From Lachnospiraceae bacterium (GTDB taxonomy: Bacteria > Bacillota > Clostridia > Lachnospirales > Lachnospiraceae), in assembly GCA_017467805.1 (NCBI GenBank), contig JAFUKJ010000030.1, forward strand, positions 1-64,000: a DNA stretch of 64,000 nucleotides. Reading direction: 5' to 3'. A model generated the notes under the pieces. That model searched no databases and had not been told where the DNA came from. It was given only the letters and a program-made list of their open reading frames with translations. The translations under genes were made by a program, and so were the position numbers. Of the stretch, positions 564 to 15,146 are shown in pieces; the first letter of the stretch is position 1, and each line of letters begins with the position of its first letter.

Positions 564-1430
564 TTAGTTAGCCTTACCAACAGAACCGAATAATTCCATC
601 TTCTCCTTAACAGTAGCCTTAATAGCCTCTGCACCTGGAGCAAGTAACTTACGTGGGTCAAAGCCCTTACCCTCTAAGTCCTTACCAGCCTCTACATACT
701 TACGAGTAGCTGCTGCGAATGCTAACTGGCACTCTGTGTTAACGTTAATCTTAGCTACACCAAGAGAAATAGCCTTCTTAATCATATCCTCAGGGATACC
801 TGTACCACCGTGAAGAACTAATGGCATCTCACCTGTCTTCTGCTGAACAGCATCAAGTGTCTCAAAGCTAAGACCAGCCCAGTTTGCAGGATACTTACCA
901 TGAATGTTACCGATACCTGCTGCAAGCATATCAACGCCAAGATCAGCGATTGCCTTACACTCTGCTGGGTCTGCACACTCACCAGCACCAACAACACCGT
1001 CTTCTTCTCCACCGATAGAACCAACCTCTGCCTCGATAGAAAGTCCCTTAGCATGAGCTGCTGCTACTAACTCCTTAGTCTTCTCAACGTTCTCCTCGAT
1101 TGAATAGTGAGAACCATCAAACATAACTGAAGAGAAACCAGCCTCGATACACTTATAGCAGTGATCATAGCTGCCGTGATCTAAGTGAAGAGCTACAGGA
1201 ACAGTAATTCCCATCTCCTCAATCATACCGTTTACCATACCAACGATTGTCTTATATCCGCACATATACTTACCAGCACCCTCAGATACACCTAAGATTA
1301 CAGGGCTGTTTAACTCCTGTGCTGTCTGTAAGATAGACTTTGTCCACTCAAGATTGTTAATATTGAACTGACCTACTGCATAGTGGCCTGCTTTTGCTTT
1401 TTTAAGCATTTCTGTAGCTGAAACTAACAT
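564..1430 (-). CDS. fba: Class II fructose-1,6-bisphosphate aldolase
   Basis: Zinc-dependent cytoplasmic aldolase that splits fructose 1,6-bisphosphate into DHAP and glyceraldehyde 3-phosphate, and runs in reverse in gluconeogenesis. The 288-residue protein has the class II signature HLDHG at residues 82-86, with the catalytic Asp84 and a metal ligand His85. Further metal-ligand histidines lie at about 177 (NIHGKYP) and 207 (LHGGTG), and a GSHYS phosphate loop at 107-111. The start is preceded by GGAGG. It has its own promoter and terminator, so it is monocistronic. A second, diverged class II aldolase lies at 12095-13030. A tagatose-bisphosphate aldolase is a possible alternative, but nothing nearby points to that pathway. 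Confidence 0.93.
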   Translation of the reverse strand: MLVSATEMLKKAKAGHYAVGQFNINNLEWTKSILQTAQELNSPVILGVSEGAGKYMCGYKTIVGMVNGMIEEMGITVPVALHLDHGSYDHCYKCIEAGFSSVMFDGSHYSIEENVEKTKELVAAAHAKGLSIEAEVGSIGGEEDGVVGAGECADPAECKAIADLGVDMLAAGIGNIHGKYPANWAGLSFETLDAVQQKTGEMPLVLHGGTGIPEDMIKKAISLGVAKINVNTECQLAFAAATRKYVEAGKDLEGKGFDPRKLLAPGAEAIKATVKEKMELFGSVGKAN

Positions 1431-1476
1431 AATTAAAACCTCCGTTAATTTATTATTTTTTCACTTCGATGTCTAT

Positions 1477-1505
1477 AGTATAACCTTTTCATTCCATCTT
1501 GTAAA
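1477..1505 (-). promoter_or_regulatory. Sigma-A promoter of the first aldolase gene
   Basis: On the minus strand, TTTACA (1505-1500), a 17-bp spacer and TATACT (1482-1477) stand about 47 bases before the start codon. Spacing and boxes fit a strong housekeeping promoter. Confidence 0.65.
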
Positions 1506-1535
1506 TAAAATTGTCATTTTTTTAACGTTATCTTT

Positions 1536-3293
1536 TTAACTTTCAAAAAATCTTACGCAGACACCACCTGCCTGTAACACACCATCTGCAAGCTTCTGCG
1601 AGAACAAAATCTCACCTTGCTCAGGCCGTAAAAGCTTTACATCTTCCGTACTGCTGTTTACAACAATCTCAAGCTTCTCACTCCAGCCCATCTTCCAGAA
1701 CTGAATCACTCTTGGATTCTCATATTCGGATGGAAAATGGAAATTACGCTCGCGCATAAGCGGCTGTGACTTTCTAAGTGCAATCAGTTCACGCATAAAA
1801 TCAATACGCTCATCAAATACGCCACTCTCTATCTTATCCCAAGGCATACATCTGCGGCAATCAGGGTCAAAGCCACCCTCCATACCGATTTCCGTACCAT
1901 AATAAATACAGGTGCTTCCTGGCATGGTAAATAAAAGTGTCAGCAATGCGCGATACTCTTCCTCATTCTTCACCACATTACGCAGTCTGATGGTATCATG
2001 AGAATCCAGCATATTAAACAGTACATCATTGGTCTGCTGCATATAGTTTGTGTAGCAGCGATTGACCATATACTCAAAATCCTCTCCTGTCAGACTCTCA
2101 TCAATAAAGAAGTCCTTCATACTGCCTGCCAAAGGATAATTCATTACCGCGTCATATTCATCGCCGCGAAGCCATGCAATCGCATCATGCCAGATTTCTC
2201 CCAAAATATAAATATCAGGCTTGATTGCCTTCAACGCCGCGCGAAGCTCCTTGCAGAAGGTATGAGAAATCTCATTTGCAACATCAATACGAATACCATC
2301 TACATCGTATTTGCGCACCCAGTCGCACACAACACCAATCAAATACTCTCTTACCTTGGGATGATTGGTATTGAGCTTTGGCATACTGTCAAAGAAAGCA
2401 AAGGTATATAACTGCCCCTTCTTCGCTGCCCCCTTCTCAAGCGGCCATTCATTAATCATAAACCAATCATAATATTCAGACTGTGGTCCCTTCTCCAACA
2501 CATCCTGCCACGGCTTGAAATAAAAACCGCTATGATTAAACACTGCATCCAGCATAATACGAATGCCTTTACTGTGAGCGCTCTGTACAAGTGTCTTCAT
2601 TAACAACTCGTTTCCAAAATGAGGGTCAATATTTTCATAATCTGTAGTATCGTACTTGTGATTTGAAGGCGACTCATTGATTGGAGTCAGGTAAATTCCT
2701 GTGATACCAAGCTTCTGCAAATAATCCAGCTTATCCAGAATCCCCTGCAAATCGCCACCATATAAGTCACGATTTTCTATCGGCTTATCTGCATTCCATT
2801 CCAAAACATTTTCAGGATTGATATCTGGATTACCATTGCAGAATCTGTCAGGGAAAATCTGATACCAAATGGTTTCATTTACCCAATATGGTGTCTTATT
2901 CACATCAGAAGGATTCAGCCAAGGCATGGTAAAACACTGACGGCTTCTGCCGCTAAGCTGCATCTGTTCCTCACTGACAAAGCCATCCTCAAAATAATAC
3001 CACTTCTCGTCCTTAGTAATCAGCTCAAAGTAATACTTCAAACGCTTAAACTCAGGCACGATGGTCGTCGTCCACCAAAGCTGATTCTTCAAACGCTTCT
3101 TATATGGAATACCTGCCTTATCACCTGTCCATTCCTCACCACCGCCAAGGATACCGTTTGCAAAAGGGTCGCCATAAATGATATTGACCTCCTTTACATC
3201 ATACCCAGTCTTTATATTAATAATTAACTGATTCTCGTCCAATGCGTAACAATAGTTGTCTGTTGCTCTGTGAAATACTGCTCCAAATTCCAT
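1536..3293 (-). CDS. GH13 neopullulanase / cyclomaltodextrinase-type alpha-glucanase
   Basis: Cytoplasmic alpha-glucanase acting on malto-oligosaccharides, cyclodextrins or pullulan fragments. Numbered from the chosen start (585 residues), an N-terminal beta-sandwich of CBM34 type covers about 1-125, followed by the TIM barrel. The catalytic set is visible: nucleophile Asp337 in GIRIDVAN, acid/base Glu366 in ILGEIWHD, and the third Asp433 in LDSHDT. There is no signal peptide. The ATG at 3293 is preferred over the in-frame upstream ATG at 3320 because AGGTG stands five bases ahead of it. The promoter carries a CcpA-like palindrome, so catabolite repression or MalR-like control is likely. Exact substrate preference cannot be read from sequence. 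Confidence 0.88.
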   Translation of the reverse strand: MEFGAVFHRATDNYCYALDENQLIINIKTGYDVKEVNIIYGDPFANGILGGGEEWTGDKAGIPYKKRLKNQLWWTTTIVPEFKRLKYYFELITKDEKWYYFEDGFVSEEQMQLSGRSRQCFTMPWLNPSDVNKTPYWVNETIWYQIFPDRFCNGNPDINPENVLEWNADKPIENRDLYGGDLQGILDKLDYLQKLGITGIYLTPINESPSNHKYDTTDYENIDPHFGNELLMKTLVQSAHSKGIRIMLDAVFNHSGFYFKPWQDVLEKGPQSEYYDWFMINEWPLEKGAAKKGQLYTFAFFDSMPKLNTNHPKVREYLIGVVCDWVRKYDVDGIRIDVANEISHTFCKELRAALKAIKPDIYILGEIWHDAIAWLRGDEYDAVMNYPLAGSMKDFFIDESLTGEDFEYMVNRCYTNYMQQTNDVLFNMLDSHDTIRLRNVVKNEEEYRALLTLLFTMPGSTCIYYGTEIGMEGGFDPDCRRCMPWDKIESGVFDERIDFMRELIALRKSQPLMRERNFHFPSEYENPRVIQFWKMGWSEKLEIVVNSSTEDVKLLRPEQGEILFSQKLADGVLQAGGVCVRFFES

Positions 3294-3388
3294 AGTAACA
3301 CCTAACCTTTCCATCAGCATTCAATTACTGATGCTCTTATTACTTTTATTCCCATAATTTCTTTATTTATCAATTGGAAATATCGCTC

Positions 3389-3402
3389 GGAAAACGTTTT
3401 CC
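3389..3402. promoter_or_regulatory. Perfect 14-bp LacI-family operator (cre-like) before the GH13 gene
   Basis: GGAAAACGTTTTCC is a perfect palindrome with the central CG typical of LacI-family and CcpA (cre) operators. It lies just downstream of the predicted GH13 promoter, about +9 to +22, a roadblock position. CcpA with Crh/HPr-Ser-P, or a MalR-type regulator, could bind it. Confidence 0.7.
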
Positions 3403-3417
3403 AAATCGCTTTTTGTT

Positions 3418-3446
3418 ATCATACACCCTTTTGTAAAATAAAGCAA
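3418..3446 (-). promoter_or_regulatory. Promoter of the GH13 gene
   Basis: On the minus strand TTGCTT (3446-3441), a 17-bp spacer and TATGAT (3423-3418) form a sigma-A-like promoter whose start would fall near 3411, directly before the 3389-3402 palindrome. Confidence 0.55.
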
Positions 3447-3514
3447 GTACTTTCTTACTACAACCAATCCTAACATCACCTCATTATAACAAGCTTCTAT
3501 CACTGTTCCTTGTT

Positions 3515-3551
3515 GTTCATATTGCAATTCATATTGTAGTGCAATATGAAC
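3515..3551. repeat. 12-bp perfect inverted repeat in the divergent intergenic region
   Basis: GTTCATATTGCA (3515-3526) and TGCAATATGAAC (3540-3551) are exact complements around 13 bases. The spacer contains another TTCATATTG, so three copies of the half-site lie in 37 bp. It sits between the GH13 promoter and the plus-strand promoter at 3565. A regulator-binding site is likelier than a terminator because no T-run follows on either side. Confidence 0.45.
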
Positions 3552-3564
3552 AGAAATGTTCTAC

Positions 3565-3690
3565 TTGACTTCCATAGTCGAATATTGTATCTTTTTTATG
3601 TAATAGAAAAGTGCTCGAAAGTGGTGGAATTTAAACAAGAATCAGTTGTACTGATTCTTGCGAAGTGTTGCCGCTGGGCAACACTTTTTT
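3565..3690 (+). ncRNA. Candidate ~90-nt RNA with its own promoter and terminator
   Basis: TTGACT (3565-3570), a 17-bp spacer and TATCTT (3588-3593) look like a promoter, giving a start near 3600. The transcript would contain a 10-bp perfect hairpin (3636-3660, loop TTGTA), then a 9-bp hairpin AGTGTTGCC/GGCAACACT (3664-3685, loop GCTG) running into TTTTTT. The latter is a textbook intrinsic terminator. No plausible protein is encoded. It could be a stand-alone small RNA, or an upstream attenuator in the leader of the glycine riboswitch that begins only about 50 bases later. I recognise no RNA family. Confidence 0.5.
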
Positions 3691-3699
3691 ATGAAGTTA

Positions 3700-3872
3700 A
3701 TAACACATATGAAGCTTGCAGAACTGACAGGGACTGTGAGCGGATGTAACTCTGGAGAAGCTCACTTGTGGGTGCCGAAGGGGCAAGGCATTATGCTAAT
3801 CTCTCAGGCAAAAGGACAGAGAAGATACTAATAATCTTTGATGTTGGACAGAGTTTTATACTCTGTTTTTTT
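3700..3872 (+). promoter_or_regulatory. Glycine riboswitch with intrinsic terminator, upstream of the AGCS symporter
   Basis: The conserved gcvT-type aptamer core is plain: P1 strands CTCTG (3750-3754) and CAGAG (3817-3821), GGAGA pairing with TCTCT, GCCGAAGGGGCAA (3773-3785) and CTCTCAGGCAAAAGGAC (3801-3817). Only one full aptamer is visible; about 50 bases ahead may be a degenerate 5' ghost aptamer. An expression platform follows: ACAGAG (3848-3853), loop, CTCTGT (3861-3866) and seven T. The 5' arm of that terminator repeats GGACAGAG from the aptamer's P1 3' strand, so the two can compete for the same partner. Control of an amino-acid symporter fits. Confidence 0.88.
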
Positions 3873-3928
3873 AATGCACATTTTTTGTTCTTACTCTAGG
3901 AAAAATAATTAATATGAAGGAGATAACT

Positions 3929-5371
3929 ATGTGGGAGAATTTTAATGAAATCTTAGTAAAGATTGATGACTTTGTATGGGGTGTACCTCTTATGGTGCTC
4001 ATTATGGCAGGCGGTCTTTTGCTGACATTGCGTTTGGGCGTATTACAGGTTAGAAGATTACCACTCGCTCTTAAGTGGATGGTAAAGAACGAAGAAGGCG
4101 GTGAGGGTGAGGTTTCCTCATTCGGCGCACTTTGTACAGCACTTTCAGCTACTATCGGAACAGGTAACATCGTAGGTGTTGCTACTGCAGTTTGTGCAGG
4201 TGGTCCTGGTGCTTTGTTCTGGATGATTGTTGCTGCATTCCTTGGAATGGCAACAAAATATGCAGAGGGACTTTTAGCCGTTAAGTATCGTGTGATTGAC
4301 GAGAATAATCATTCTCTTGGTGGACCTTTCTATTACATAGAGCAGGGTATGGGTAAGAACTTTAAGTGGCTTGCTAAACTATTTGCAATCTTTGGTGTAT
4401 GTGCAGGTTTACTTGGAATTGGTACAATTACTCAGGTAAGTGGTATTGCATCAGCAGTTCAGGGATTCTTTGACCCTAATAATACAAATACTGTTGCTAT
4501 TCCAGTTATCGGTGAATACTCATGGGCTACTATCATTGCAGCTATTTTAGTTACACTTTGCGTTGCCATGGTTCTTATTGGTGGTATTCAGAGAATCACT
4601 AAGGTTTCAGAGATCATTGTTCCTTTTATGGCAATCCTTTATGTTGTATTCTGTCTTATCTTGATTATTACGAATATTACAGAGGTTCCATCTGCTATTG
4701 TTACAATCGTTAAGGGTGCGTTTAATCCTCAGGCTGTAACTGGTGGTATTGTAGGTTCTATGCTTGTTGCTATGCAGAAGGGTGTTGCAAGAGGTATCTT
4801 CTCTAATGAAGCTGGTCTTGGTTCTGCACCTATTGCAGCAGCAGCTGCTAAGACAAACAGTCCTGTTCGCCAGGGACTTGTTTCTATGACAGGTGTATTT
4901 ATTGATACAATTATCATCTGTACTATGACAGGTCTTTCTATCGTAGTAACAGGTGCTTGGCAGGTAGAAGGCTTAGAGGGTGTGCAGGTAACATCCTACG
5001 CATTCCAGAATGGTCTTCCATTCTCAACACAGGTATCTGCATTTGCACTTATGCTTTGCCTTGTATTCTTTGCATTTACTACGATTCTTGGTTGGGACTA
5101 CTACTCAGAGAGATGTCTTGAGTATCTTACCAAAAAGAACATGAAAGCCATCAAGGTATACAGATGGTTATACATCATCGCTGTATTCATTGGACCATTC
5201 CTTACAGTATCTGCTGTATGGACAATTGCTGATATCTTTAACGGACTTATGGCGATTCCAAACATGATTGCATTGTTTGCATTAAGCGGTGTGGTTGCTA
5301 AGGAGACTAAAGAGTTTTTCAAGAACTTTAAGAAAGAAAATGAAATAGATGAAATGAAGAAGGGCGCCTAA
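3929..5371 (+). CDS. AGCS-family sodium:alanine/glycine symporter
   Basis: Integral membrane cation symporter of the alanine/glycine:cation family, here probably taking up glycine. About 480 residues with some ten or more hydrophobic helices. The family signature ALSATIGTGNIVGVATAV lies near residues 70-90, and NEAGLGSAPIAAAAA sits in the middle of the chain. Translation should begin at 3929: the upstream in-frame ATG at 3914 is immediately followed by the AAGGAG that serves as ribosome binding site for the second ATG. A glycine riboswitch precedes it, which supports glycine as substrate and glycine-dependent attenuation. No other gene shares the transcript. Confidence 0.92.
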   Translation: MWENFNEILVKIDDFVWGVPLMVLIMAGGLLLTLRLGVLQVRRLPLALKWMVKNEEGGEGEVSSFGALCTALSATIGTGNIVGVATAVCAGGPGALFWMIVAAFLGMATKYAEGLLAVKYRVIDENNHSLGGPFYYIEQGMGKNFKWLAKLFAIFGVCAGLLGIGTITQVSGIASAVQGFFDPNNTNTVAIPVIGEYSWATIIAAILVTLCVAMVLIGGIQRITKVSEIIVPFMAILYVVFCLILIITNITEVPSAIVTIVKGAFNPQAVTGGIVGSMLVAMQKGVARGIFSNEAGLGSAPIAAAAAKTNSPVRQGLVSMTGVFIDTIIICTMTGLSIVVTGAWQVEGLEGVQVTSYAFQNGLPFSTQVSAFALMLCLVFFAFTTILGWDYYSERCLEYLTKKNMKAIKVYRWLYIIAVFIGPFLTVSAVWTIADIFNGLMAIPNMIALFALSGVVAKETKEFFKNFKKENEIDEMKKGA

Positions 5372-5380
5372 TTGGCGCCC
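5362..5380 (+). terminator. GC-rich hairpin overlapping the symporter stop codon
   Basis: GGGCGCC and GGCGCCC form a 7-bp stem whose loop contains the TAA stop. The following bases (TCATATACC) are not a T-run, so it is a weak terminator or an mRNA 3'-end stabilizer. Confidence 0.5.
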
Positions 5381-5417
5381 TCATATACCTAAAACAATAG
5401 CCATTTCAGCATTACCA

Positions 5418-6569
5418 TTACTTTATTGTCACATGAAGAATTTTTAGTTTTGGTTGCTGAATAGTATCCTTATCTACTATCTCGCAATATATATCTCCTG
5501 TTGACGATTGAAATGTAAATAACATAATTGTATTATTATCCAATAATTCTAATTTCCCATATTGTTTATTTATCAGATCATAACAGTATAATCCTTCTTG
5601 TTCTCCATAGCTATTCACTATCATGTATTGATCTAATAACGCATACGAAAACAAATCCTCTATTTCGATTACTTCTTTTTCCTCATTTTCAAAGACATAG
5701 CTATATATCTTTTCAGGCTGCAATTCATTACCTTCAGACCAAATACATCTCGTTCTATCCGATATAGGTTTGCATACTGTAGAATCACATGATAAATACT
5801 GCACTTGTTTGAATGTGTCCACTTCGTTACTCACAATATCGTATCCCTTTATTTTATTTGCTCGATATGTTGTTATAATCCCTTCATCTATAGCAACATG
5901 CTCATATGGCGAAGCCAAATCACACTCTTCTACTACTACATCTGTCTTTCCACTTTGTATATTATATTGCTTTAAACATGTGCTACCATTCCGATTCTGA
6001 TCATACCAATACAGATTATCCTCTATTAAATTTGGCGTAATAGACCAAAATCCACCAGAACCTTCTTCTGAACTCACTATTACTTTCGGATTATTCAATA
6101 TTTCCAGTTCCAGACATCTGATATTCCAGGTATTTTCCACATACTCCTCCCATATAACGTATCTTCCGTTACATCGGATATCCGTTACATTAATGCACCG
6201 TTCTTCATGATATTGATATAATATTTTATCTTCTCCACTTTCAGAGTCATATACTCGCACTTGTGTATTATACTCTGGAGCAAATTCTTTTGCATCTGTT
6301 TCTGTTTTATTAGTCATATAATCCGAAAAATCAACTAAATAATATACCTTATCCTGATATACACAAAAATTACCACAACTACTATTTATCGGTGTTTCAA
6401 ACTCTATTACATTCACCCGAAGATTACTCCATATATCAGGATTATATGTATATGAATATTTACAGAATTCTTCCTTTTCTAATACTACTTCTTTACTCTT
6501 CTCCTTCCATTGAAAAGCAACAACAATCAAACATAAAAATATTAAAATACTATAAATCCACTTTTTCAT
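5418..6569 (-). CDS. Membrane-anchored extracellular protein, probable beta-propeller
   Basis: Unnamed 383-residue protein. Residues 1-20 form a hydrophobic segment after MKK with no clear lipobox cysteine, so it is probably a membrane anchor. The rest looks extracellular: repeated blocks of about 45-50 residues with aromatic-rich strands such as 'VYYLVDFSD', 'NLYWYDQNR' and 'LYCYDLINK', as in TolB-like or DUF5050-like propellers. I see no enzyme motif. It starts 20 bases after the stop of the C39-like protease gene with a ribosome site AAAGGGAG, so the two form an operon. Its placement beside the LytTR system suggests a target or partner of that system. Confidence 0.6.
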   Translation of the reverse strand: MKKWIYSILIFLCLIVVAFQWKEKSKEVVLEKEEFCKYSYTYNPDIWSNLRVNVIEFETPINSSCGNFCVYQDKVYYLVDFSDYMTNKTETDAKEFAPEYNTQVRVYDSESGEDKILYQYHEERCINVTDIRCNGRYVIWEEYVENTWNIRCLELEILNNPKVIVSSEEGSGGFWSITPNLIEDNLYWYDQNRNGSTCLKQYNIQSGKTDVVVEECDLASPYEHVAIDEGIITTYRANKIKGYDIVSNEVDTFKQVQYLSCDSTVCKPISDRTRCIWSEGNELQPEKIYSYVFENEEKEVIEIEDLFSYALLDQYMIVNSYGEQEGLYCYDLINKQYGKLELLDNNTIMLFTFQSSTGDIYCEIVDKDTIQQPKLKILHVTIK

Positions 6570-6589
6570 GGATACATTCTCCCTTTATA

Positions 6590-7348
6590 CTAATATATCA
6601 TATATCTATTTGTTTCTGCATTGATTGTATTATATGCCTCTTCCAACGTTACAATATGCACACCGTAATATTCAGGATTGTAATTGCAATCGACAATACG
6701 CACTTTATCTGTGGTTCTATTAATATAATCAACACTCAAATAATGGTTAAGGTCTTTTCCACCGTAATACGTTAAATATTTTGTTTTTGCATGAAGCACC
6801 ACTGGTTTACAATTAGTAAGCGATCTCGCAATGTTATCTTCAAAGGTATTTATTGTCATGTTTTTTCCAACTTCATAAATATATCTTTGTGAACCTTTAT
6901 TATATTCATTTAACGCATTTCTCAACTGATATACAATCAAATGTCCTTGTCCATCTACATTATACTTTGCATCCAGTGTACTGATTTTGGCAGAATTATC
7001 CTCACCAGGTACATTTCCAGCACTTCCCAACCCATACAATGTTTGCAATGCTGTTGTAGTACCACAATTGTACGTTTTGGTCTGTTTTATATTAGTAACA
7101 TACTGATAGCATTCATTACCACCGCCGCCTCTCATCATTTTTCTATATCTACTATTTAATACATCTTCAATAAATTCTTCGGCGTATTCTTCTCCATATT
7201 CTTGAAGCATCATGCAAAACTGCTCATCATTTTGATACTCTTTATATATTTCTTCTTTTTCAGTCAATGTGTATTCTGCCGCATTTACCACCGATGCGTT
7301 CCCCATGATACACATTATCAATACTATTCCTATTATTTTTTTATACAT
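6590..7348 (-). CDS. Secreted C39-like (papain-fold) cysteine protease
   Basis: About 252 residues with a signal peptide ending near VNAA-E. A helical, Glu-rich stretch (about 25-70) and a GGGG hinge (about 74-77) precede a C39_2-type catalytic domain: Gln89 and Cys95 in KQTKTYNCGTTTALQ, His202 in LNHYLSVDY and Asp220 in IVDCNYN. Those are the oxyanion Gln and the catalytic triad. The ATG at 7348 is chosen over 7357 because AAGGA overlaps the first ATG and is correctly spaced for the second. The protease is free-standing, not fused to an ABC exporter as in bacteriocin transporters. The substrate is unknown; the short GG-containing peptide encoded 340 bases upstream is an attractive candidate. 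Confidence 0.75.
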   Translation of the reverse strand: MYKKIIGIVLIMCIMGNASVVNAAEYTLTEKEEIYKEYQNDEQFCMMLQEYGEEYAEEFIEDVLNSRYRKMMRGGGGNECYQYVTNIKQTKTYNCGTTTALQTLYGLGSAGNVPGEDNSAKISTLDAKYNVDGQGHLIVYQLRNALNEYNKGSQRYIYEVGKNMTINTFEDNIARSLTNCKPVVLHAKTKYLTYYGGKDLNHYLSVDYINRTTDKVRIVDCNYNPEYYGVHIVTLEEAYNTINAETNRYMIY

Positions 7349-7431
7349 TATGTTCATCCTTTCTTTTTTATTTCTAATAAGTATTTGCGGAAGGTCACGC
7401 TTATTTCTATCAGATATGATTTTTTATCACA

Positions 7432-7494
7432 GAATTCGTACCAGCGCACGAATTCATCCATGTTTGGTATAATGATTGCGAACGAATTTTGCAA
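7432..7494 (-). promoter_or_regulatory. Promoter region of the protease operon with an inverted repeat
   Basis: On the minus strand TTGCAA (7494-7489), 17 bp and TATACC (7471-7466) form a likely promoter. Immediately downstream GAATTCGT (7432-7439) and ACGAATTC (7448-7455) are an 8-bp inverted repeat near the transcription start, a possible operator or 5' hairpin. I did not find the LytTR direct repeat seen at 7809 here. Confidence 0.4.
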
Positions 7495-7613
7495 TTACCT
7501 ATTCGTCTTTACACTCATTCGAAAAAGTTGTACACTTCACTTAAGTACTTTTTTCCAAAGTGCTACCTACTTAGCTTCCCTTTCTAGTTTGCGCAGACTA
7601 TGGGGAAGCTTTT
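7468..7613 (+). ncRNA. Weak candidate plus-strand RNA opposite the signalling operon
   Basis: On the plus strand TGGTATAAT (7465-7473) is an extended -10 element, with only a poor -35. About 100 bases on, AGCTTCCC (7573-7580) and GGGAAGCT (7603-7610), with an inner TAGT/ACTA pair, are followed by TTTT. That makes a terminator in the plus direction only. Between them AGTACTTT and AAAGTGCT can pair. No protein is encoded. The promoter is weak, so this may be only a terminator. Confidence 0.25.
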
Positions 7614-7666
7614 ATATAAAATGATCAATATCACAAAATACCTTCCACAATATACCTTGTTCCATT

Positions 7667-7688
7667 AAAAACTCTCTTTTAGAGAACT
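7667..7688 (-). terminator. Hairpin and U-tract directly after the small peptide gene
   Basis: On the minus strand AGTTCTCT, AAA and AGAGAGTT pair with two G-U wobbles and run into TTTTT. It begins one base after the peptide stop codon, so most transcripts from the LytTR-type promoter would be about 110 nt and encode only the peptide. Confidence 0.55.
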
Positions 7689-7689
7689 T

Positions 7690-7752
7690 TTATTTTCCTC
7701 CCTTCAACATTTTTATAATCTCATCTAACCAATCTGTTCCTGAATAATACAT
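7690..7752 (-). CDS. 20-residue leader-like peptide gene
   Basis: Encodes MYYSGTDWLDEIIKMLKGGK. The ATG has an excellent ribosome binding site, GGGAGGTG, five bases upstream. An in-frame ATG at 7782 would give 30 residues, but it lacks such a site and probably lies upstream of the transcription start. The segment 'DWLDEIIKMLKGG' is amphipathic and has the spacing of a double-glycine leader: GG preceded by hydrophobic residues at -4, -7 and -12. Only one Lys follows the GG. No AgrB-like or Cys-containing AIP precursor is present. Context (LytTR repeats just upstream, kinase and regulator behind, C39-like protease ahead) suggests a secreted signal or its degraded precursor. Product unproven. 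Confidence 0.6.
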   Translation of the reverse strand: MYYSGTDWLDEIIKMLKGGK

Positions 7753-7808
7753 ACCTTCACCTCCCATTGAAATCATACTCATAATGTAACCCTTTTTTCA
7801 ATATCAAC

Positions 7809-7841
7809 GTCGTAGAATGCATTTTTATGTCGTGAAATGCA
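7809..7841 (-). promoter_or_regulatory. Direct-repeat LytTR-type binding site before the peptide gene
   Basis: GTCGTAGAATGCA (7809-7821) and GTCGTGAAATGCA (7829-7841) match at 11 of 13 positions and start exactly 20 bp apart, about two helical turns. That is the architecture bound by LytTR dimers such as AgrA. A TACATT -10-like box (7788-7783 on the minus strand) lies about 20 bp downstream, placing the repeats at an activator position. Confidence 0.65.
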
Positions 7842-7864
7842 AAAATGAACCCTACTTAGGTCCA
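7841..7864 (-). terminator. Terminator of the kinase gene
   Basis: On the minus strand TGGACC and GGGTTCA form a short stem (one G-U pair) followed by TTTTT, about 25 bases after the kinase stop. It separates the kinase transcript from the peptide promoter. Confidence 0.45.
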
Positions 7865-7888
7865 TTTCATACAAAATTATATATAATT

Positions 7889-9151
7889 TTAAATGCAAAT
7901 TTCCAATATCACCTTACCATCCTGATATTGATATTCCATACTCCCTTTTAACCTTTCTACGGCATTTCTAATATTTCTAACACCGTAGCCATGTTCGTCT
8001 TTGTTATCCTTCGAAGTATCTTCTCTCAATATATTCTGATACATCTCCTCCGTTGCTGAGTTTTCAAATCTGCAACAGAGTGTCTGATGATGGCTTAACA
8101 ACTTAACCTCAATCTCCTTATCATTCTCCATTTTATCACAAGCTTCTATCGCATTATTAATGGCATTCGAAAATACAGTACATAGTTCATATATATCACA
8201 ATGTAATCCTTGCTCCATTTCTCCTTCTATCTCTAACCTAATCCCTTTCTCCAATGCTTGCTGATTCATCATACTAAGAATTGCATCCAATCTTTCCTCT
8301 CCGATATGAATCTTTTGAAAAGACGCTTGTGTAAACTCCTGGTGAATACGATTAAGATAATTCTTCGCATCTACTACCTTATCTTCCTCTAATAGTAGTT
8401 GTAGCATTCCCATTTGGTTTGAAATATCATGACGAAATCTACGCATTTCTTTGTCCTTTTCGCAAAGTATCTCATAGTATGCCTGTTGTACACGAATCAC
8501 TTCATCCTTTAAAGCATTCTTTTCAAAAAAAACCTTCTTTTGGTAACTCTCAATAACCAGCCAAACAATCAAGCCCCAAATTCCACCAAATGCTATAGCT
8601 ATTGTTACCCTGAATATCATTATTCCTCTAACATCATTGAATTCTTCATGCAATATATTTCCCAATACTGCTATTGCAATGCTAAATATAAGTACAAACA
8701 TAATCAAAAAATATTTTCCAGCAGAAATGCTATTCATATACTTAATCATCTTATGATACCATTGCATTCTAGACACTATATAGAATATGATAGTTACTAT
8801 TCCTAAGCGAAGAAAATCTATCATTCTATCCATGAAAACATCATTTATCATAGTATCAATAAAAATATCAAGAAACGCATCTGCAAAAGCTATCATCCAA
8901 TATAAGAGAAGTATATTCAACAGCTTTCTAGTCCATCTTCCTTCGCATATCATAAACCATACTACTATTTCTAATATATAATAAATACTAAATAATTCTG
9001 GAAACAATACAAATTTGGATAATAACGCAACAGCATATAATGCCCCCGCTAATAACCATCTTCTTGGTTCCTTAACCGTCCAATGATTTGTCCATTCACC
9101 TATTAGAACCATACATAGCAAACTAAAAATAAAATATACTACCTCTACCAT
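7889..9151 (-). CDS. AgrC-like GHKL sensor histidine kinase
   Basis: Membrane sensor kinase of about 420 residues. Residues 1-200 hold six or seven hydrophobic helices, as in AgrC/ComD-type peptide receptors. A coiled linker (about 205-235) leads to the phosphoacceptor His241 in FRHDISNQ, then a GHKL ATPase domain with the N box FSNAINNAIEAC (about 327-338) and glycine box HGYGVRNI (about 387-394). An in-frame ATG at 9163 overlaps the regulator gene; I prefer the ATG at 9151, one base after the regulator's TGA, with GAGGTG upstream. It is co-transcribed with the LytTR regulator. No AgrB protease is present; the ligand is presumably a peptide, plausibly the one encoded at 7690-7752. Confidence 0.87.
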   Translation of the reverse strand: MVEVVYFIFSLLCMVLIGEWTNHWTVKEPRRWLLAGALYAVALLSKFVLFPELFSIYYILEIVVWFMICEGRWTRKLLNILLLYWMIAFADAFLDIFIDTMINDVFMDRMIDFLRLGIVTIIFYIVSRMQWYHKMIKYMNSISAGKYFLIMFVLIFSIAIAVLGNILHEEFNDVRGIMIFRVTIAIAFGGIWGLIVWLVIESYQKKVFFEKNALKDEVIRVQQAYYEILCEKDKEMRRFRHDISNQMGMLQLLLEEDKVVDAKNYLNRIHQEFTQASFQKIHIGEERLDAILSMMNQQALEKGIRLEIEGEMEQGLHCDIYELCTVFSNAINNAIEACDKMENDKEIEVKLLSHHQTLCCRFENSATEEMYQNILREDTSKDNKDEHGYGVRNIRNAVERLKGSMEYQYQDGKVILEICI

Positions 9152-9152
9152 C

Positions 9153-9848
9153 TCACACCTCATCCAGCTTACTTCTCAGATAGCTCCTATACTGCTCCAA
9201 TATAGCCCCCTTATTCTTACGACTTAAACGAATCCTCTTATCTTCTTCTAAGATAACTTCATCTTGGTTTTTATCGAATAACGCAAGATTTATAATGTAA
9301 GAGCGATTTACCCTACAGAAGTCCGTGTGTGGTAATACTTCTTCCCATTCCTTCATGGTTCGGCGTATTAGGTATTTTTCATCTTCTGTTACTAAATATG
9401 TATATTTATCCTCAGCCTCTATATATCTGACAGAATCTGCATAGACAACATATCGCTTTCCGTTCTCTTCCCATTCCACTGTTTTTCTATTGACAAACAG
9501 CTTCATCTTCTTAACAATCTGTGCAAAAGCAGTTTCCCGAATAGGCTTCTGTAAAAATCCTATCACATTCGCTCCAAATGCCTCTACCATACGTTCCTCA
9601 TGACTTGTCAGGAAAATAATCTTTACCCGTGATTTTTCTCTTTCCAAGATATCCTTTACATGTATACCATCCATCCCTGTCATCTCAATATCTAGGAATA
9701 AGAAATCATATTGCATATCTGACCCTAATAATTCTTCACCGTTCGTATAATAATCATATATGACATCTTCCTGCCCCAATATCCTCTTGCAGTTCTCTAT
9801 CACCGCTTCGCTATATAGTCTTTCATCATCACATATCGCGATTCGCAC
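9153..9848 (-). CDS. AgrA-like LytTR response regulator
   Basis: Cytoplasmic DNA-binding response regulator, 231 residues. The receiver domain (1-115) has the acidic pair in CDDE, phosphoacceptor Asp53 in FLFLDIEM, the Thr in FLTSHEE and Lys in LQKP. Residues 130-231 are a LytTR domain ('HTDFCRVNRSYIINL'). The start is GTG, with GGAGGT eight bases upstream. First gene of a two-gene operon with the kinase. LytTR domains bind paired direct repeats about 21 bp apart; such a pair lies at 7809-7841, before the small peptide gene, which makes that gene the obvious target. Confidence 0.9.
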   Translation of the reverse strand: MRIAICDDERLYSEAVIENCKRILGQEDVIYDYYTNGEELLGSDMQYDFLFLDIEMTGMDGIHVKDILEREKSRVKIIFLTSHEERMVEAFGANVIGFLQKPIRETAFAQIVKKMKLFVNRKTVEWEENGKRYVVYADSVRYIEAEDKYTYLVTEDEKYLIRRTMKEWEEVLPHTDFCRVNRSYIINLALFDKNQDEVILEEDKRIRLSRKNKGAILEQYRSYLRSKLDEV

Positions 9849-9971
9849 TTTACTGTACCTCCGTAATACCTATACCTTAGTCCGAATCCCCTATCTTATC
9901 ACATCCACACTTAACATAATACTCTATCACATGCACTTTTACTAGGAACTATAATTCCTAGTTGCAACAAT

Positions 9972-11867
9972 TTACAAGAAAAACTTCAACAGCATATATC
10001 CCACAGCTGCCACCCCTGCAAGGAATTTCCAAGCTTTTTTCCAAAAACTCTTCTTACGCTTCTTGGACTTTTTCTTCTTTTCCTTCTCCTTCTTTTCTGC
10101 CTGCTGTTCACGCTCTGCTTCCTCACGTTTAGACAGCTTTGGCTTCTTATAGATAGCAAGTGCCTTCTGCCAGCGTTCCTTTAGGTCGTCACGTTCAGCA
10201 GATAGCGCCAGCATTTGCGCATTCATCTCGGCAATATGCTCTGGTGTGTATGGCGGCTTGATGATGCTCATTCTGCCCATACCACTCTCAATGGTTTCCT
10301 TCGTATAATGAAGTCCCATGAAATGCTCCATACGTCTCTCCAATAGTGCCATGTCATCATTCTCCTGCTGGTCCTCCTGCAAGGTGGATAACAAACGCAT
10401 TGCTCCGCTATCATAGTGGGACGGATTGATACATACCAAATGCCAGATATTGCTTGTCTTGTCAGGCTTATCCTTAAACACGCGAATTGCGCGGCCACGC
10501 ATCTGATTACTCAGCATAAAAGAACCTACAAAGCTTGCAAGAATGAGTGAATTGATACATGGTGAATCCCAGCCCTCGCCTAAGAGTGACTTGGTTCCCA
10601 CCAATACCTGCATATAGCCTTGTGTAAATATCTCTGTCACTGCTGCAGTCAGAAAATGCGCATCTCCTACAGCATCAACCTTAAGATAATCCGTCTCGGC
10701 AAGCTGTCCTATCTTAGAGAAGGTTACTCTTCCTATACCTTCTATTGCTTTTTCTAGAGCTTCCTTTGCTTCTGCTGGTATAACCACAAGTGTGCCACAG
10801 AGTACACCAAGTCTTAACTTCTTCACCTGCTGTACACCTACTTGCGACAAATCTGTCTGACCTACTGATGCACAATCCGCTTCCTCTGCCTGCTCTGTTA
10901 TATCCTTTGTCTGCGCCTCTGTCTCAGGAGTCTGTGGCTGCTTCAATCTCTCCTCTATATCGCGTCTTAATATCTCAAAAAATGGTACAACACCAAGCTC
11001 ATAAACCTCCTTGGTCTCATCACCTACTGCCTTTTCATATTCCTTCTTAATAAAATCAGTCAGAATCAACAGTCTCAGCTCATCTCCAAAGGACTTATGC
11101 TCGTGTGCCACAATATCACGGATACTTTGAATCTTGCCCTTAGACTTCATAAGCTCCTTGTCACCAAGCTTCTGTTCTTCCTTAGTCGGATAATTAAAAT
11201 ATACATAGTCCTGATGAGGGCAAAGACTTCCCTCTTTTACCAGCTCAGGAATACTAATCTCCACATCAATCTCACCGCACATATCAATATAGCGCTTCCA
11301 CATAGATGGTGTAGAATCATAAGGCGGTGTTGCCGTAAGAGAAATCATGCGAATCCCATTACAGGCGCTTCTTACCTCTTCTAATGCCTTCCACCATTCA
11401 CTGCGCAGATGATGGCATTCATCAAGGCAGAATACACCTATGGCGTTGTCACGAATCTTGGCAATCACATCAAAGTCAGTGTAATCAATTCCTTCATCCT
11501 CCTCACCCTTACCATCGCACTTCTCACGTCTCAATGCACTATGAAGTGCCTGATAGGTTACTACTGTGATGACTCTAGGGTCTCGTAAATCCTGCGATAT
11601 GTAGTCCTCTGCATTCACACCCTCGCATAAGAAGCCCGATACTATACGCGCTACCCACTGCTCGCGAATGGTAATTGATGGTGCAAGCACCAGTGTCGGA
11701 CTCTGCATTCTCTTAATCAGTTCTATTCCCAATGTAGTCTTACCAGAGCCTGGCGCCGCCACAATATGTACCTTGCCGTCCTGCAAATACTTTGTTGCAT
11801 TCTCTAATGCTCTCGCCTGATAGGTTCTCCATGTTCCTTTAAACTGTAATATTCTGTCGTAATTCAT
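9972..11867 (-). CDS. SF2 DEAD/DEAH-box helicase with basic linker and hydrophobic tail
   Basis: 631-residue ATP-dependent helicase/translocase of the ResIII/XPB-like group. Motif I is APGSGKTT (38-45), motif II DECH (149-152), motif III LTATPP (177-182) and motif VI QMRGRAIRV in the second RecA domain. An insert of about 55 Glu/Gln/Thr-rich residues separates parts of the C-terminal half. Unusually, the end is a Lys/Glu-rich charged coil (about 570-612) and then a hydrophobic stretch of about 17 residues at the very C-terminus, like a tail anchor. It stands alone, with no nuclease or methylase neighbour. DNA repair, RNA remodelling or defence are all possible; I do not assign a role. Confidence 0.75.
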   Translation of the reverse strand: MNYDRILQFKGTWRTYQARALENATKYLQDGKVHIVAAPGSGKTTLGIELIKRMQSPTLVLAPSITIREQWVARIVSGFLCEGVNAEDYISQDLRDPRVITVVTYQALHSALRREKCDGKGEEDEGIDYTDFDVIAKIRDNAIGVFCLDECHHLRSEWWKALEEVRSACNGIRMISLTATPPYDSTPSMWKRYIDMCGEIDVEISIPELVKEGSLCPHQDYVYFNYPTKEEQKLGDKELMKSKGKIQSIRDIVAHEHKSFGDELRLLILTDFIKKEYEKAVGDETKEVYELGVVPFFEILRRDIEERLKQPQTPETEAQTKDITEQAEEADCASVGQTDLSQVGVQQVKKLRLGVLCGTLVVIPAEAKEALEKAIEGIGRVTFSKIGQLAETDYLKVDAVGDAHFLTAAVTEIFTQGYMQVLVGTKSLLGEGWDSPCINSLILASFVGSFMLSNQMRGRAIRVFKDKPDKTSNIWHLVCINPSHYDSGAMRLLSTLQEDQQENDDMALLERRMEHFMGLHYTKETIESGMGRMSIIKPPYTPEHIAEMNAQMLALSAERDDLKERWQKALAIYKKPKLSKREEAEREQQAEKKEKEKKKKSKKRKKSFWKKAWKFLAGVAAVGYMLLKFFL

Positions 11868-12015
11868 ATTCTCCCTCTCTCATATATGATTTCCTCATAG
11901 ATAACCTAAGTTTACCATATTTATGCAAGCCATGCACATAAATTCACAGCAGCATTGCTTCTTTTCGGTGTAGGTATTGCAATCTTTTCCAGTTGGTTGT
12001 ATATTATAGGCATAG

Positions 12016-12050
12016 GTAAAATATTTTAATTTTTAGTTAAAGTATTTTAC
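12016..12050. promoter_or_regulatory. 14-bp inverted repeat upstream of the second aldolase
   Basis: GTAAAATATTTTAA (12016-12029) and TTAAAGTATTTTAC (12037-12050) are complementary at 13 of 14 positions around a 7-base spacer. They lie 45-80 bases before the aldolase ATG. A related but poorer repeat stands before the GH43 gene at 46358-46389. Probable operator; the regulator is unknown. Confidence 0.45.
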
Positions 12051-12094
12051 ATAATAACAAATTCATTTTTTAATTGAGAAGGGATGGTTTAACT

Positions 12095-13030
12095 ATGGCA
12101 TTAGTTACTACTAAAGACATGTTTGCCAAGGCATATGCAGGCGGCTATGCAGTTGGTGCTTTCAATGTAAACAATATGGAAATCGTGCAGGGTATCACAG
12201 AAGCAGCTGGTGAGCTTCGCTCACCTATCGTTCTTCAGGTATCTGCAGGTGCCAGAAACTACGCTAATCATAACTACTTAGTAAAGCTCGTTGAAGCAGC
12301 TTTGATGCAGTATGATATTCCTGTAGCACTTCACTTAGACCACGGTGCTGACTTTGATATCTGTAAGTCATGTATCGACGGTGGATTTACTTCAGTTATG
12401 ATTGATGGTTCTCACCATTCATTTAAGGATAATATCGAATTAACAAGAAGAGTTGTAGATTACGCTCATTCAAAGGGTGTTGTAGTAGAGGGTGAGCTTG
12501 GACAGCTCGCTGGTATCGAGGATGATGTTAACGTATCTGCTGAGGATGCAAGCTATACACATCCAGATGAGGTTGAAGAGTTCGTTGATAAGACAGGTGT
12601 TGATTCCCTTGCTATCGCAATTGGAACAAGCCACGGTGCTTTCAAGTTCAAGCCAGGTCAGACACCACAGCTTCGTTTTGACATTCTTGACGAGGTTAGC
12701 AAGCGTCTTCCTAACTTCCCTATCGTACTTCATGGTGCATCAAGCGTTTCTCAGGAGTATGTAAAGATTATTCAGGCTAACGGTGGTAAGCTTGAAGATG
12801 CTATCGGTATTCCAGAGGATATGTTAAGACAGGCCGCTAGAAGTGCTGTATGTAAGATTAACATCGACTCAGACCTTCGTCTTGCTATGACAGCAGGTGT
12901 TCGTGAAGTATTATACAACAATCCTTCAGCATTCGACCCAAGAGAGTATCTCAAGGTTGGTCGTGCTAACGTTAAGGCTCTTGTTGCTCACAAGATTACA
13001 AACGTACTCGGAAGCGAGAACAAAGCTTAA
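12095..13030 (+). CDS. fba: Second class II fructose-bisphosphate aldolase
   Basis: 311-residue zinc aldolase of the same superfamily as the gene at 564, but clearly diverged. HLDHG at 80-84 (catalytic Asp82, metal His83), GSHHS at 105-109, metal-ligand His180 in IGTSHGAF and His213 in VLHGAS, and the phosphate-binding NIDSD in the C-terminal third. It carries an extra stretch near 220-240 ('IIQANGGKLEDA'). The ATG at 12095 is taken over an in-frame TTG at 12074; AGAAGGG precedes it, though 11 bases away. Monocistronic between an inverted-repeat operator and two terminators. Either the main glycolytic aldolase or a condition-specific paralogue; sequence alone does not settle which. Confidence 0.92.
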   Translation: MALVTTKDMFAKAYAGGYAVGAFNVNNMEIVQGITEAAGELRSPIVLQVSAGARNYANHNYLVKLVEAALMQYDIPVALHLDHGADFDICKSCIDGGFTSVMIDGSHHSFKDNIELTRRVVDYAHSKGVVVEGELGQLAGIEDDVNVSAEDASYTHPDEVEEFVDKTGVDSLAIAIGTSHGAFKFKPGQTPQLRFDILDEVSKRLPNFPIVLHGASSVSQEYVKIIQANGGKLEDAIGIPEDMLRQAARSAVCKINIDSDLRLAMTAGVREVLYNNPSAFDPREYLKVGRANVKALVAHKITNVLGSENKA

Positions 13031-13033
13031 TAA

Positions 13034-13084
13034 TGTGCGCCCGCTGGGCGCACATAAAAAAACTCCGCATCATGCGGAGTTTTT
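13034..13084. terminator. Two stacked hairpins, the second bidirectional, between aldolase and crh
   Basis: TGTGCGCCC/GGGCGCACA (13034-13054), then ACTCCGCA/TGCGGAGT (13062-13080) flanked by an A-run on the left and TTTTT on the right. The second terminates the plus-strand aldolase and also the minus-strand crh operon. Confidence 0.8.
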
Positions 13085-13092
13085 ATTATCTT

Positions 13093-13353
13093 TTATTCAT
13101 CCTGTCCGTTTAAAAATCTCTCGATATGTGCAATAGCGTCTGCTTCATCAGCGCCATCTGCAACTACTGTGAGCTCTTCGCCGTTATCAAGTCCAAGGCT
13201 CATCATACCCATAATACTCTTAGCATTGACCTTCTTATCGTCTACCTCTACGAAAACAGAGCTCTCGTACTGGCTTGCTACCTGTACAAATACAGCAACA
13301 GGTCTTGCCTCTAATCCATTGTCTAAATGAATTGTCATAGATTTTTGAATCAT
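13093..13353 (-). CDS. crh: Crh-type HPr homologue with Glu at position 15
   Basis: 86-residue HPr-fold protein. HPr of the PTS accepts phosphate on His15 in GLHARP; here the motif is GLEARP, so Glu15 replaces the phosphoacceptor and the protein cannot relay PTS phosphate. The regulatory Ser46 and its context NAKSIMGMMSLG are intact, so it should be a substrate of HprK and, as Ser46-P, a CcpA corepressor. The match to Bacillus subtilis Crh (Gln15) extends along the chain (ARPVAVFVQ, KKVNAKSIMG). Position supports this: it lies just after whiA and rapZ, as in Bacillus, with hprK a few genes upstream. Ribosome site GGAGG. A misannotated ptsH is the main alternative. Confidence 0.87.
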   Translation of the reverse strand: MIQKSMTIHLDNGLEARPVAVFVQVASQYESSVFVEVDDKKVNAKSIMGMMSLGLDNGEELTVVADGADEADAIAHIERFLNGQDE

Positions 13354-13368
13354 AATTCTTCCTCCTCT

Positions 13369-14259
13369 TTAACTGCGTAATCTATCCGCTAATTCACTCA
13401 GCTTACGCAGACGATGGTTCACACCCGACTTACCAACCTTAGGCTCCAGGCATTCCCCAAGCTCTTTAAGTGTTGCTTCAGGATACTCTAGTCTAACTAC
13501 TGCAATCTCTCGCAGATTATCAGACAAATTATCAAATCCATAATGGTCTCTAATATACTGAATATCCTCTATTTGCTTCGTTGCTGCATTTACTGTCTTG
13601 GTAATATTTGCAGCCTCGCAATTCACTCTTCTGTTAATGGAGTTACGCATATCCTTCAGAATACGCAGATTCTCCAAATTCATCAAGGCAACATGCGCTC
13701 CCATAACATTCAGAAGCTCAACAATGCCTTCACTTTCCTTGATATATACTACCTGATAACGCTTACGCTGTACTATCTTGGCTTCTATATCAAATGTATG
13801 TAACATGTCCTGTATCTGTCCTGCCTGCTCGATATTCTCACATACAAACTCCAGATGATATCCCTTCTCAGGATTACTCATGGAACCAATGCTCAAGAAT
13901 GCGCCTCTAAGAAACGCTCTCTTACAACAGGCACTCTTCACAACCAATGGACTAACGGTATGACTGCCTTCCACATATTTAATGGACATCAAAATCCTAT
14001 TTACCGCTTCCGAATCTATACATCGGCAATTAGGAGTTTCAGCCACACTGCCTATATTAAATGTTTTCTTCAATAATGTAAAGCATTTTCTTGTCGGAAA
14101 AAGAGATTCCTCATGCATTTCAATATAAAATTGTCCCTTTTCGTCCTTTTTTACCGCCATTGCATACTGTAAAATTGCCGCAAGCTCTGCTATCTGGCAA
14201 TGCTTAGGCGTTGGCAGCTGCTTTACTAATTCTTCCTTTACCTCTGCTGAAAATGACAA
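13369..14259 (-). CDS. whiA: WhiA-family DNA-binding regulator
   Basis: 296-residue protein of the WhiA/DUF199 family, combining a degenerate LAGLIDADG-like N-terminal domain (about 15-195) with a C-terminal helix-turn-helix (about 210-290, 'EYPEATLKELGECL' and 'GVNHRLRKLSELA'). WhiA influences cell division and chromosome segregation in Firmicutes and sporulation in actinomycetes. It stands between crh and rapZ, the conserved Firmicutes order, with short gaps that imply co-transcription. The length is slightly below the usual 310-330 but all parts appear present. Confidence 0.92.
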   Translation of the reverse strand: MSFSAEVKEELVKQLPTPKHCQIAELAAILQYAMAVKKDEKGQFYIEMHEESLFPTRKCFTLLKKTFNIGSVAETPNCRCIDSEAVNRILMSIKYVEGSHTVSPLVVKSACCKRAFLRGAFLSIGSMSNPEKGYHLEFVCENIEQAGQIQDMLHTFDIEAKIVQRKRYQVVYIKESEGIVELLNVMGAHVALMNLENLRILKDMRNSINRRVNCEAANITKTVNAATKQIEDIQYIRDHYGFDNLSDNLREIAVVRLEYPEATLKELGECLEPKVGKSGVNHRLRKLSELADRLRS

Positions 14260-14288
14260 CTATCTATCCCTTTGCCTTTCCATCTTAC

Positions 14289-15146
14289 TTATGATTTAAT
14301 CTCACGATGACGTAATGTCACACCATACTCACCATTGTTATATAAACGCCTGTATAACTCTCCTGCAAGCGTTACACTTCTATGCTGTCCGCCTGTACAG
14401 CCTATCGCTACTACCAGCTGATACTTGCCTTCCTTCACATACTGTGGAATCAGAAAACGCACCATATCCTCAAGCTTTGCCATAAATTCCTTTGCTTCAT
14501 CATAGCCCATAACATAATCCTGAACCTCTTTATCCAGTCCTGTCTTCTGCTTAAGCTCATCAATATAGAAGGGATTAGGCAGGAATCGTACATCAAATAC
14601 CAAATCAGCATCCTGCGGAATACCATGCTTAAATCCAAAGGATACAATATTTACCATGAGATTATTATATTTCTCATCCTTAACAAATATGCGGTCAAGC
14701 TCTTCCTTAAGCTCTCTTGTCAGAAGATTTGTTGTATCAATAATATAATCTGCCTCTGTCTTGATACTGCTTAATACCTTTCTCTCCTGCTGAATACCCT
14801 GCATCAGGTCTCCATCCGAAGAAAGTGGATGTAGACGACGGGTTTCCTTGTATCTCTTCAATAATACTTCATCTGAAGCCTGTAGAAATAACACTTCAAA
14901 AGGATATCCGTTGGTACGAAGTCTCTCTATCAGACTATTCACATCATCAAAGGACTGGTCTGCTCTGACATCTAACCCTAGGGCTACCTTTTCTATCTCA
15001 CAGCTTGGCATGGATAAAAGCTCCATAAATTTCTCAATCAAAGCCACTGGCATATTATCCGCACAATAATAACCTGCGTCCTCTAACATCTTCATAGTAA
15101 TACTCTTACCGCCACCACTCATACCGGTAACTATGACAAATCTCAT
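14289..15146 (-). CDS. rapZ: RapZ/YvcJ family nucleotide-binding protein
   Basis: About 285 residues. Walker A GMSGGGKS at 8-15, a Walker B-like region, and the C-terminal domain with IGCTGGQHRSV near residue 240, all diagnostic of RapZ. In Enterobacteria RapZ is an RNase adaptor for GlmZ; in Bacillus YvcJ the role is less defined and linked to cell-wall precursor and competence control. The ATG at 15146 is preferred to an in-frame TTG at 15164 because GGAAAGGAAGG directly precedes it. Cluster partners murB and whiA support a cell-envelope or division link. Confidence 0.92.
   Translation of the reverse strand: MRFVIVTGMSGGGKSITMKMLEDAGYYCADNMPVALIEKFMELLSMPSCEIEKVALGLDVRADQSFDDVNSLIERLRTNGYPFEVLFLQASDEVLLKRYKETRRLHPLSSDGDLMQGIQQERKVLSSIKTEADYIIDTTNLLTRELKEELDRIFVKDEKYNNLMVNIVSFGFKHGIPQDADLVFDVRFLPNPFYIDELKQKTGLDKEVQDYVMGYDEAKEFMAKLEDMVRFLIPQYVKEGKYQLVVAIGCTGGQHRSVTLAGELYRRLYNNGEYGVTLRHREIKS

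Follow-up and report, generated by a model that had tools for sequence, protein, structure and literature searches.

Within the window, by which is meant the whole 64,000-nucleotide stretch of Lachnospiraceae DNA that was analysed, the gene order on the minus strand is LytTR regulator, GHKL kinase, peptide ORF, C39-like protein and a 383-aa protein. In the direction of transcription the features are:

9153..9848, minus strand: AgrA-like response regulator with a LytTR domain, 231 aa, GTG start (PF04397, PF00072)
7889..9163, minus strand: AgrC-like GHKL sensor kinase, 424 aa, with about six N-terminal hydrophobic stretches (PF14501, E 4e-22)
7809..7841, minus strand: LytTR-type direct repeat TGCATTTCACGAC-N7-TGCATTCTACGAC, 20-bp period, centred near -60 of the presumed transcription start
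7772..7801, minus strand: putative promoter, -35 TTGAAA at 7801-7796, 18-nt spacer, -10 TATGAT at 7777-7772
7753..7765, minus strand: ribosome binding site GGGAGGTGAAGGT, which contains GGAGGTGA; given the presumed start, probably the whole 5' UTR
7752..7690, minus strand: leaderless peptide ORF MYYSGTDWLDEIIKMLKGGK, 20 residues, ATG at 7752-7750 and stop at 7692-7690
7666..7692, minus strand: A/U-rich 12-bp hairpin that includes the stop codon, a possible weak terminator
6590..7357, minus strand: secreted C39-like protein, a possible regulon member
5418..6569, minus strand: membrane-anchored or secreted 383-aa protein, partner of the C39-like protein

The peptide ORF is missing from the annotation, and the original prediction that drew attention to it had its sequence, coordinates and strand right. 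It was equally right about a near-ideal ribosome site: the Shine-Dalgarno GGAGGTGA that stands before the ATG occurs just once in the window, both strands counted. Transcription is presumed to start about 7 bases past the -10, i.e., near 7765, and as the in-frame ATGs at 7782, 7776 and 7767 precede that point, the ATG at 7752 is the likely start codon. The peptide seems to have a short transcript to itself. As a class, promoter-like sites are not enriched in a scan of the window (25 found against 26.9 expected from shuffles). That 7752..7690 is a genuine short gene is well supported.

With up to 3 mismatches allowed, the word that makes up the direct repeat matches the 3.0 Mb genome once, at the window's own site, so the loop looks dedicated. 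A pattern drawn from the sites of the window and of three congeneric loci (L009, L010 and L012) was run against 397 sampled genomes of the family, those three congeners excluded, and gave the window's own only; in that sample the word is therefore not shared outside the genus, while the 20-bp period is. At the other end, the mRNA had been thought to stop one base past the stop codon. This proved weak: a 12-bp hairpin does span the stop codon, but a terminator scan does not list 7666..7692 and a 121-nt fold around it is no better than shuffles (z 0.5). A conserved terminator behind the peptide was rejected, there being on average no difference in depth and no sharing of the hairpin by relatives.

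The 20 residues had been likened to a free double-glycine leader of the type cut by C39 peptidases. GG is residues 18-19 and, counted from it, the Leu at -4, Ile at -7 and Trp at -12 on which that likeness was founded are indeed there. However, Met at -5, Ile at -8 and Leu at -11 are hydrophobic as well, a pattern that is not specific to C39 leaders and is that of an amphipathic helix; the computed hydrophobic moment of the peptide, 0.729, exceeds that of all 2000 residue shuffles of it. As a single Lys follows GG, there is no core to release. The peptide has no Cys, its sole Ser is residue 4, near the N-terminus, and there is no acidic tail. A peptide search with E up to 1 covered 39 genomes of the genus and brought up no usable sequence relative; the matches in 4 of the 39 were the window's own ORF and three weak ones within frames of 726-731 residues, which were discarded.

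The neighbouring kinase, regulator and secreted C39-like protein are as had been described, and so is the lack of an adjoining AgrB. Regulator and kinase genes overlap by 11 nt if the kinase's first ATG is used. No AgrB lies near the window's kinase; the genome's one AgrB above cut-off is on a different contig, accompanied by an AgrD-like ORF and a kinase of its own. That AgrD-like ORF (locus L124, contig C53, 2049-2186) has 45 residues and no Cys; should it be real, its AIP would have to be closed as a lactone or in some other way. Inspection by eye of the ORFs of 60 aa or more at 1-20000 of the window showed no ABC exporter.

The C39-like protein and its partner

What is the secreted C39-like protein? 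It has no Pfam match above the cut-off and no NCBIfam match, and is 28% identical to a plasmid-encoded protein that carries the annotation 'C39 family peptidase' (E 2e-15 pairwise, E 2e-7 by tblastn). Its Cys98, His205 and Asp223 are at positions aligned with the annotated peptidase, and we take them to be its catalytic residues. A single-sequence AlphaFold model (pLDDT 36) was unusable. Apart from the one plasmid match, relatives were sought in genome contigs and viral contigs, and none was found there; within the genus it is represented in 3 of 39 genomes including its own, the other two having C-terminal pieces. The congeneric loci L006 and L007 have C-terminal C39 remnants before a homologue of the 383-aa partner (about 30% identity). 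As there is no kinase match in the 3 kb examined at each of these loci, and no 20/21-bp repeat upstream of the window's own C39-like gene, nothing but its nearness links that gene to the peptide. A pair of genes in Bacillus is alike in order, but its second protein does not match the 383-aa protein (E 0.21), so the pairing of the two rests on L006 and L007. The protein downstream of the peptide at another locus, L018, was rejected as C39-like, being a different protein.

Elsewhere in the window a glycine riboswitch aptamer (RF00504, 57.6 bits; 3742-3829, plus strand) precedes a gene of the sodium:alanine symporter family at 3914-5371 (PF01235). Two class II fructose-bisphosphate aldolase genes (PF01116), at 564-1430 on the minus strand and 12074-13030 on the plus strand, flank the stretch on opposite strands.

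Short peptides behind related kinases

As the peptide itself is without a usable sequence relative, the kinase was used as the search anchor. Three congeners have kinases with 27-32% identity; L009 has MIQTYSMYTTFSAWVLKYFGI and L010 has MIQTYSIYTIFSDWVLKYFGI in the same place, and L011 has none. Kinase profile searches provided the best 97 regions among the matches listed (six of them from other searches), and a 4-row kinase profile run on genome contigs gave 5 loci, 3 of them on contigs already found. Behind these Lachnospiraceae kinases a comparable ORF of 15-28 residues was recognised, partly by eye, in 33 of the 97 best-ranked regions, and no peptide was recognised in the other 64. Examples are MWLNGDLSFWEWMKKLLGGK (L066), MYFANDNTIWEWILSILNGGR (L018), MGSNNNQNARDIWSELWKWLFG (L106), MHFFYANIFDDIWKKLFG (L073) and MLCDIDWINWFISMFGKKK (L054), of which that of L066 has 20 residues, ends in LLGGK and is behind a period-20 repeat. 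The statistics given for 32 peptides concern a list partly chosen by eye, and omit L078, a near-copy of L076, and L096, where one likely extra 12-mer, seen when 16 repeat-bearing regions without a peptide were checked, was left uncounted. Two loci, L112 and L119, seem to have misread frames; they were retained in the 97 and in the kinase tree described below.

A strict criterion specified an ATG with AGGAG, GGAGG or AGGAGG 4-11 nt before it, a length of 14-30 aa and a position within 350 nt of the kinase stop. It was applied to 88 deduplicated regions, 9 of the 97 having been dropped as near-copies or as shorter than 350 nt, and it picked out an ORF in 20 of them, as against none of the 88 on the reverse strand and a chance level of 2.29 +/- 1.49 (maximum 8) in 200 dinucleotide shuffles. 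Between 800 and 1150 nt downstream there were 3 in 85 stretches, one of them the duplicated peptide of L086. The strict peptides are 10.8% Trp, the shuffle mean being 1.8% and the highest shuffle 10.7%. The mean best hydrophobic moment of the 20 is 0.532, a value reached by none of 1000 residue-shuffled sets (0.378 +/- 0.024). Net charge ranges from -6 to +1, with +1 in 6 of the 32 peptides. A Gly occurs among the last six residues of 25 of the 32 peptides and, if the strict 20 are taken alone, of 14, and the GG of MYYSGTDWLDEIIKMLKGGK is one form of this C-terminal Gly tendency.

The original prediction had made conservation of GG in relatives a test on which the free double-glycine leader could be refuted; GG is present in just 5 of the 32, and that leader is given up. 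Short ORFs behind the kinases of related Lachnospiraceae do recur by the strict count, and selection on such frames is also suggested: over three close pairs, one of them a within-contig duplicate, pN/pS is 0.26 (P = 0.014; non-synonymous changes number about 9 and synonymous ones 7), though the sample is small and the pair L009/L010 runs opposite, with 3 non-synonymous changes and 1 synonymous.

Two loci are of separate note. At L012, in congener G029 (about 870-960 in kinase orientation), the kinase end and the repeat are kept and the peptide frame runs into the neighbouring gene, which may reflect a signal-blind strain or a contig-level artefact. At L086 (G292) the kinase end, the promoter region and the peptide gene are present twice in tandem; of the kinase copies the second looks like a remnant, and the second peptide gene is open, with changes near its C-terminus.

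The genes that follow the peptide in relatives are varied. They include secreted proteins in L066, L106 and L010 (no clear family), L076 (DUF5626), L067 (CHAT/C25-like) and L085 (Amidase_6). Precursor genes are among them in L019, a lanthipeptide alpha precursor, and in L047, a GG-type precursor with a weak ComC match, and Cys-rich RiPP-like ORFs in L009/L028 and L055. Behind the L009/L028 peptide, the stretch 6783-10194 of L028 (plus strand) carries a pair of Cys-rich precursor-like ORFs together with an ABC exporter-like and a radical SAM gene, apparently a RiPP cluster under the same type of kinase. Its exporter-like gene, about 1.1 kb behind the kinase, has no C39 domain match, and because of its presence the absence of an exporter is claimed for the window's locus only.

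The phased repeat and the extent of the group

Direct repeats of 12-mers, at least 10 of 12 positions identical, were scanned for between kinase stop and peptide start. Of the 32 regions, 16 have one at period 20 and 3 have one at period 21, with periods 14-19 and 22-30 giving 0 or 1; shuffle means are 0.22 for period 20 and 0.30 for period 21, and the maximum in 60 rounds is 2. A period of 20/21 bp is what a dimeric regulator on one face of the DNA would require. Within 130 nt downstream of the kinase such a repeat is present in 19 of 31 regions with a peptide, but also in 19 of 57 family regions without a recognised one, so the site is typical of the kinase group and no proof of a peptide.

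How far does the group extend? The share of regions with a peptide drops with kinase rank, being 8/12, 11/30 and 12/49 on the by-eye list and 6/12, 6/29 and 7/44 on the strict criterion. A fresh set, the next 40 ranked Lachnospiraceae kinases, was taken once the criterion was fixed; with one region shorter than 350 nt dropped, 2 of 39 had a strict ORF (chance mean 0.98, reverse strand 1), neither of them a clear member by eye. Among the matches listed from 391 sampled genomes of the class, 29 loci, 27 of them from other families, gave no strict ORF (chance mean 0.46). The 20/21 repeat is in the first 130 nt of 4 of the 40 fresh-set regions and 4 of the 29 class-set regions. In a tree of 68 kinases, many of whose forks are unsupported, the peptide-bearing ones are mostly in one broad part and weakly clustered (13 changes, with 65 of 500 shuffles as low).

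An AgrB-like protein is beside 1 of the 97 regions examined. By kind, in a count made by iterative search of flanks of up to about 1.5 kb, for many loci the downstream side only, it adjoins none of the 32 peptide-bearing kinases, 1 of the 65 other family kinases and 6 of the 29 class kinases; with just 1 in 65, absence of AgrB does not single out the peptide-bearing kinases.

Signal, effector or something else

What the sequence shows is the gene with its ribosome site, the phased repeat, the regulator-kinase-peptide order and the recurrence of this layout within Lachnospiraceae. What the peptide does is a further step. The reading we prefer, with a probability of roughly 0.6, is that it would be the leaderless pheromone of the adjacent AgrB-less AgrC-like two-component system, acting in a positive loop. 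The peptide would exit the cell, possibly trimmed, and bind the multi-helix membrane domain of the kinase, whose ligand it probably is. The phosphorylated LytTR regulator would then bind the 20-bp-phased repeat centred at about -60 and switch on the short peptide transcript, so closing the loop, and may control the secreted C39-like protein next to it. Across the group, position, size class and chemical character are kept while the sequence changes, and AgrB is absent, for which reasons a kinase ligand fits best. That the peptide is the signal is plausible. The core of the original proposal, a short peptide serving a kinase/regulator pair with neither AgrB nor a cyclic AIP, gains strong support from the comparison: similar leaderless ORFs, often with a repeat upstream, recur in the corresponding position, but the double-glycine component has gone. 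A broader proposal, on which the odds seem to us about even, is that the pheromones of a group of Lachnospiraceae AgrC-like kinases, the window's with its peptide included, would be linear peptides of about 12-28 residues, rich in Trp, amphipathic and without a leader. Each would have its gene immediately behind that of its kinase, on a transcript under LytTR control, would be made with neither AgrB nor a double-glycine leader, and would switch secreted proteins and RiPP/bacteriocin clusters.

How does this compare with known systems? In agr the signal has a Cys (or Ser) thiolactone or lactone core with an acidic tail, whereas the window's peptide has no Cys and its kinase has no adjoining AgrB or AgrD. 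The resemblance to agr (AgrBDCA, FsrABDC) is in the multi-helix AgrC-like GHKL kinase, the AgrA-like LytTR regulator, the repeat near -60 and the 18-nt spacer: according to PMC4227749, AgrA has a direct repeat near -60 at P2 and P3, and the P2 spacer is 18 nt. With three-component pheromone systems (ComCDE, BlpCHR, plantaricin and sakacin type) the locus shares gene order, GHKL kinase, LytTR regulator, phased repeat and a short peptide, the ubericin K cluster having, according to PMC8515946, the order regulator-kinase-pheromone with a GHKL kinase, a LytTR regulator and phased direct repeats before the controlled promoters. As in those systems, bacteriocin or RiPP-like genes follow the peptide in some relatives; unlike them, the window is without a double-glycine leader plus core, and no exporter was seen in the locus. 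In length the entire product is close to the mature pheromone of such a system. As encoded, the system is built like a three-component pheromone system but fails the leader test.

The main rival to the pheromone, unlikely in our estimation, is an effector: a small amphipathic membrane-active peptide, activated by LytTR like the staphylococcal phenol-soluble modulins, with the kinase sensing something else. It is the main rival because modulins are also short, leaderless, amphipathic and AgrA-driven. Like them and delta-haemolysin, the peptide is leaderless, with about 20 residues and a computed moment of 0.729, and has upstream of it an AgrA-like site and a promoter with a spacer of 18 nt; according to PMC4227749, psm genes are activated directly by AgrA. 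However, unlike the modulins the peptides are Trp-rich, directly behind a kinase, and neutral to acidic, only 6 of the 32 attaining the +1 that is the upper end of their range. Their wide variation, while position and type of repeat stay, would also fit signal-receptor pairs better than one lytic function.

Could the peptide act without leaving the cell? Small proteins such as MgrB or SafA act from inside on other kinases, and a small membrane-binding protein that is never exported and acts back on its own kinase would accord with the amphipathic helix, the regulator-type repeat upstream, the want of a leader and no exporter having been seen. We consider this decidedly improbable: at 15-28 residues with internal charges most of the peptides look too short to span a membrane, and the gene order is that of the regulator-kinase-pheromone systems with a secreted product, as given in PMC8515946.

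Alternatively, translation of a Trp-rich ORF could, as a regulatory leader peptide, control the gene behind it, with a hairpin at the stop codon as the switch. In the window and in L086 a hairpin does include the stop codon, but hairpins at stop codons, with a mean of -4.7 kcal/mol, are no deeper than those farther downstream (-4.9 kcal/mol), amphipathic periodicity is a feature at the protein level, and nine downstream proteins of relatives searched against Pfam include none that looks like a Trp gene; such control is very improbable. An ORF behind the kinase by chance and not a gene, for which the 64 of 97 regions with no recognised peptide and the want of a relative of the exact peptide might speak, is hardly credible in the face of the enrichment, strand bias, composition, periodicity and phased repeats.

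Returning to the pheromone, there is a precedent for a signal made in this manner, SIP of Streptococcus pyogenes, the receptor of which is cytosolic and not a membrane kinase. SIP is, in what PMC6563777 relates of Do et al. 2017, a secreted signal made without a leader, as the window's peptide would be, and unlike that peptide has eight residues. For leaderless peptides behind AgrC-like kinases, no description was found in titles and the starts of abstracts of the open-licence PMC literature, outside of which most subscription journals lie.

Annotation libraries miss genes of such size: none of ten of the peptides tested has a Pfam or NCBIfam match. If it is true that the short ORF is the ligand, the signal of orphan kinases could be read from the genome, and linear synthetic peptides would be directly testable. 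Lachnospiraceae are abundant gut bacteria, and their genomes among the matches listed have, at a first look and unconfirmed, from 4 to 63 AgrC-like kinase candidates each.
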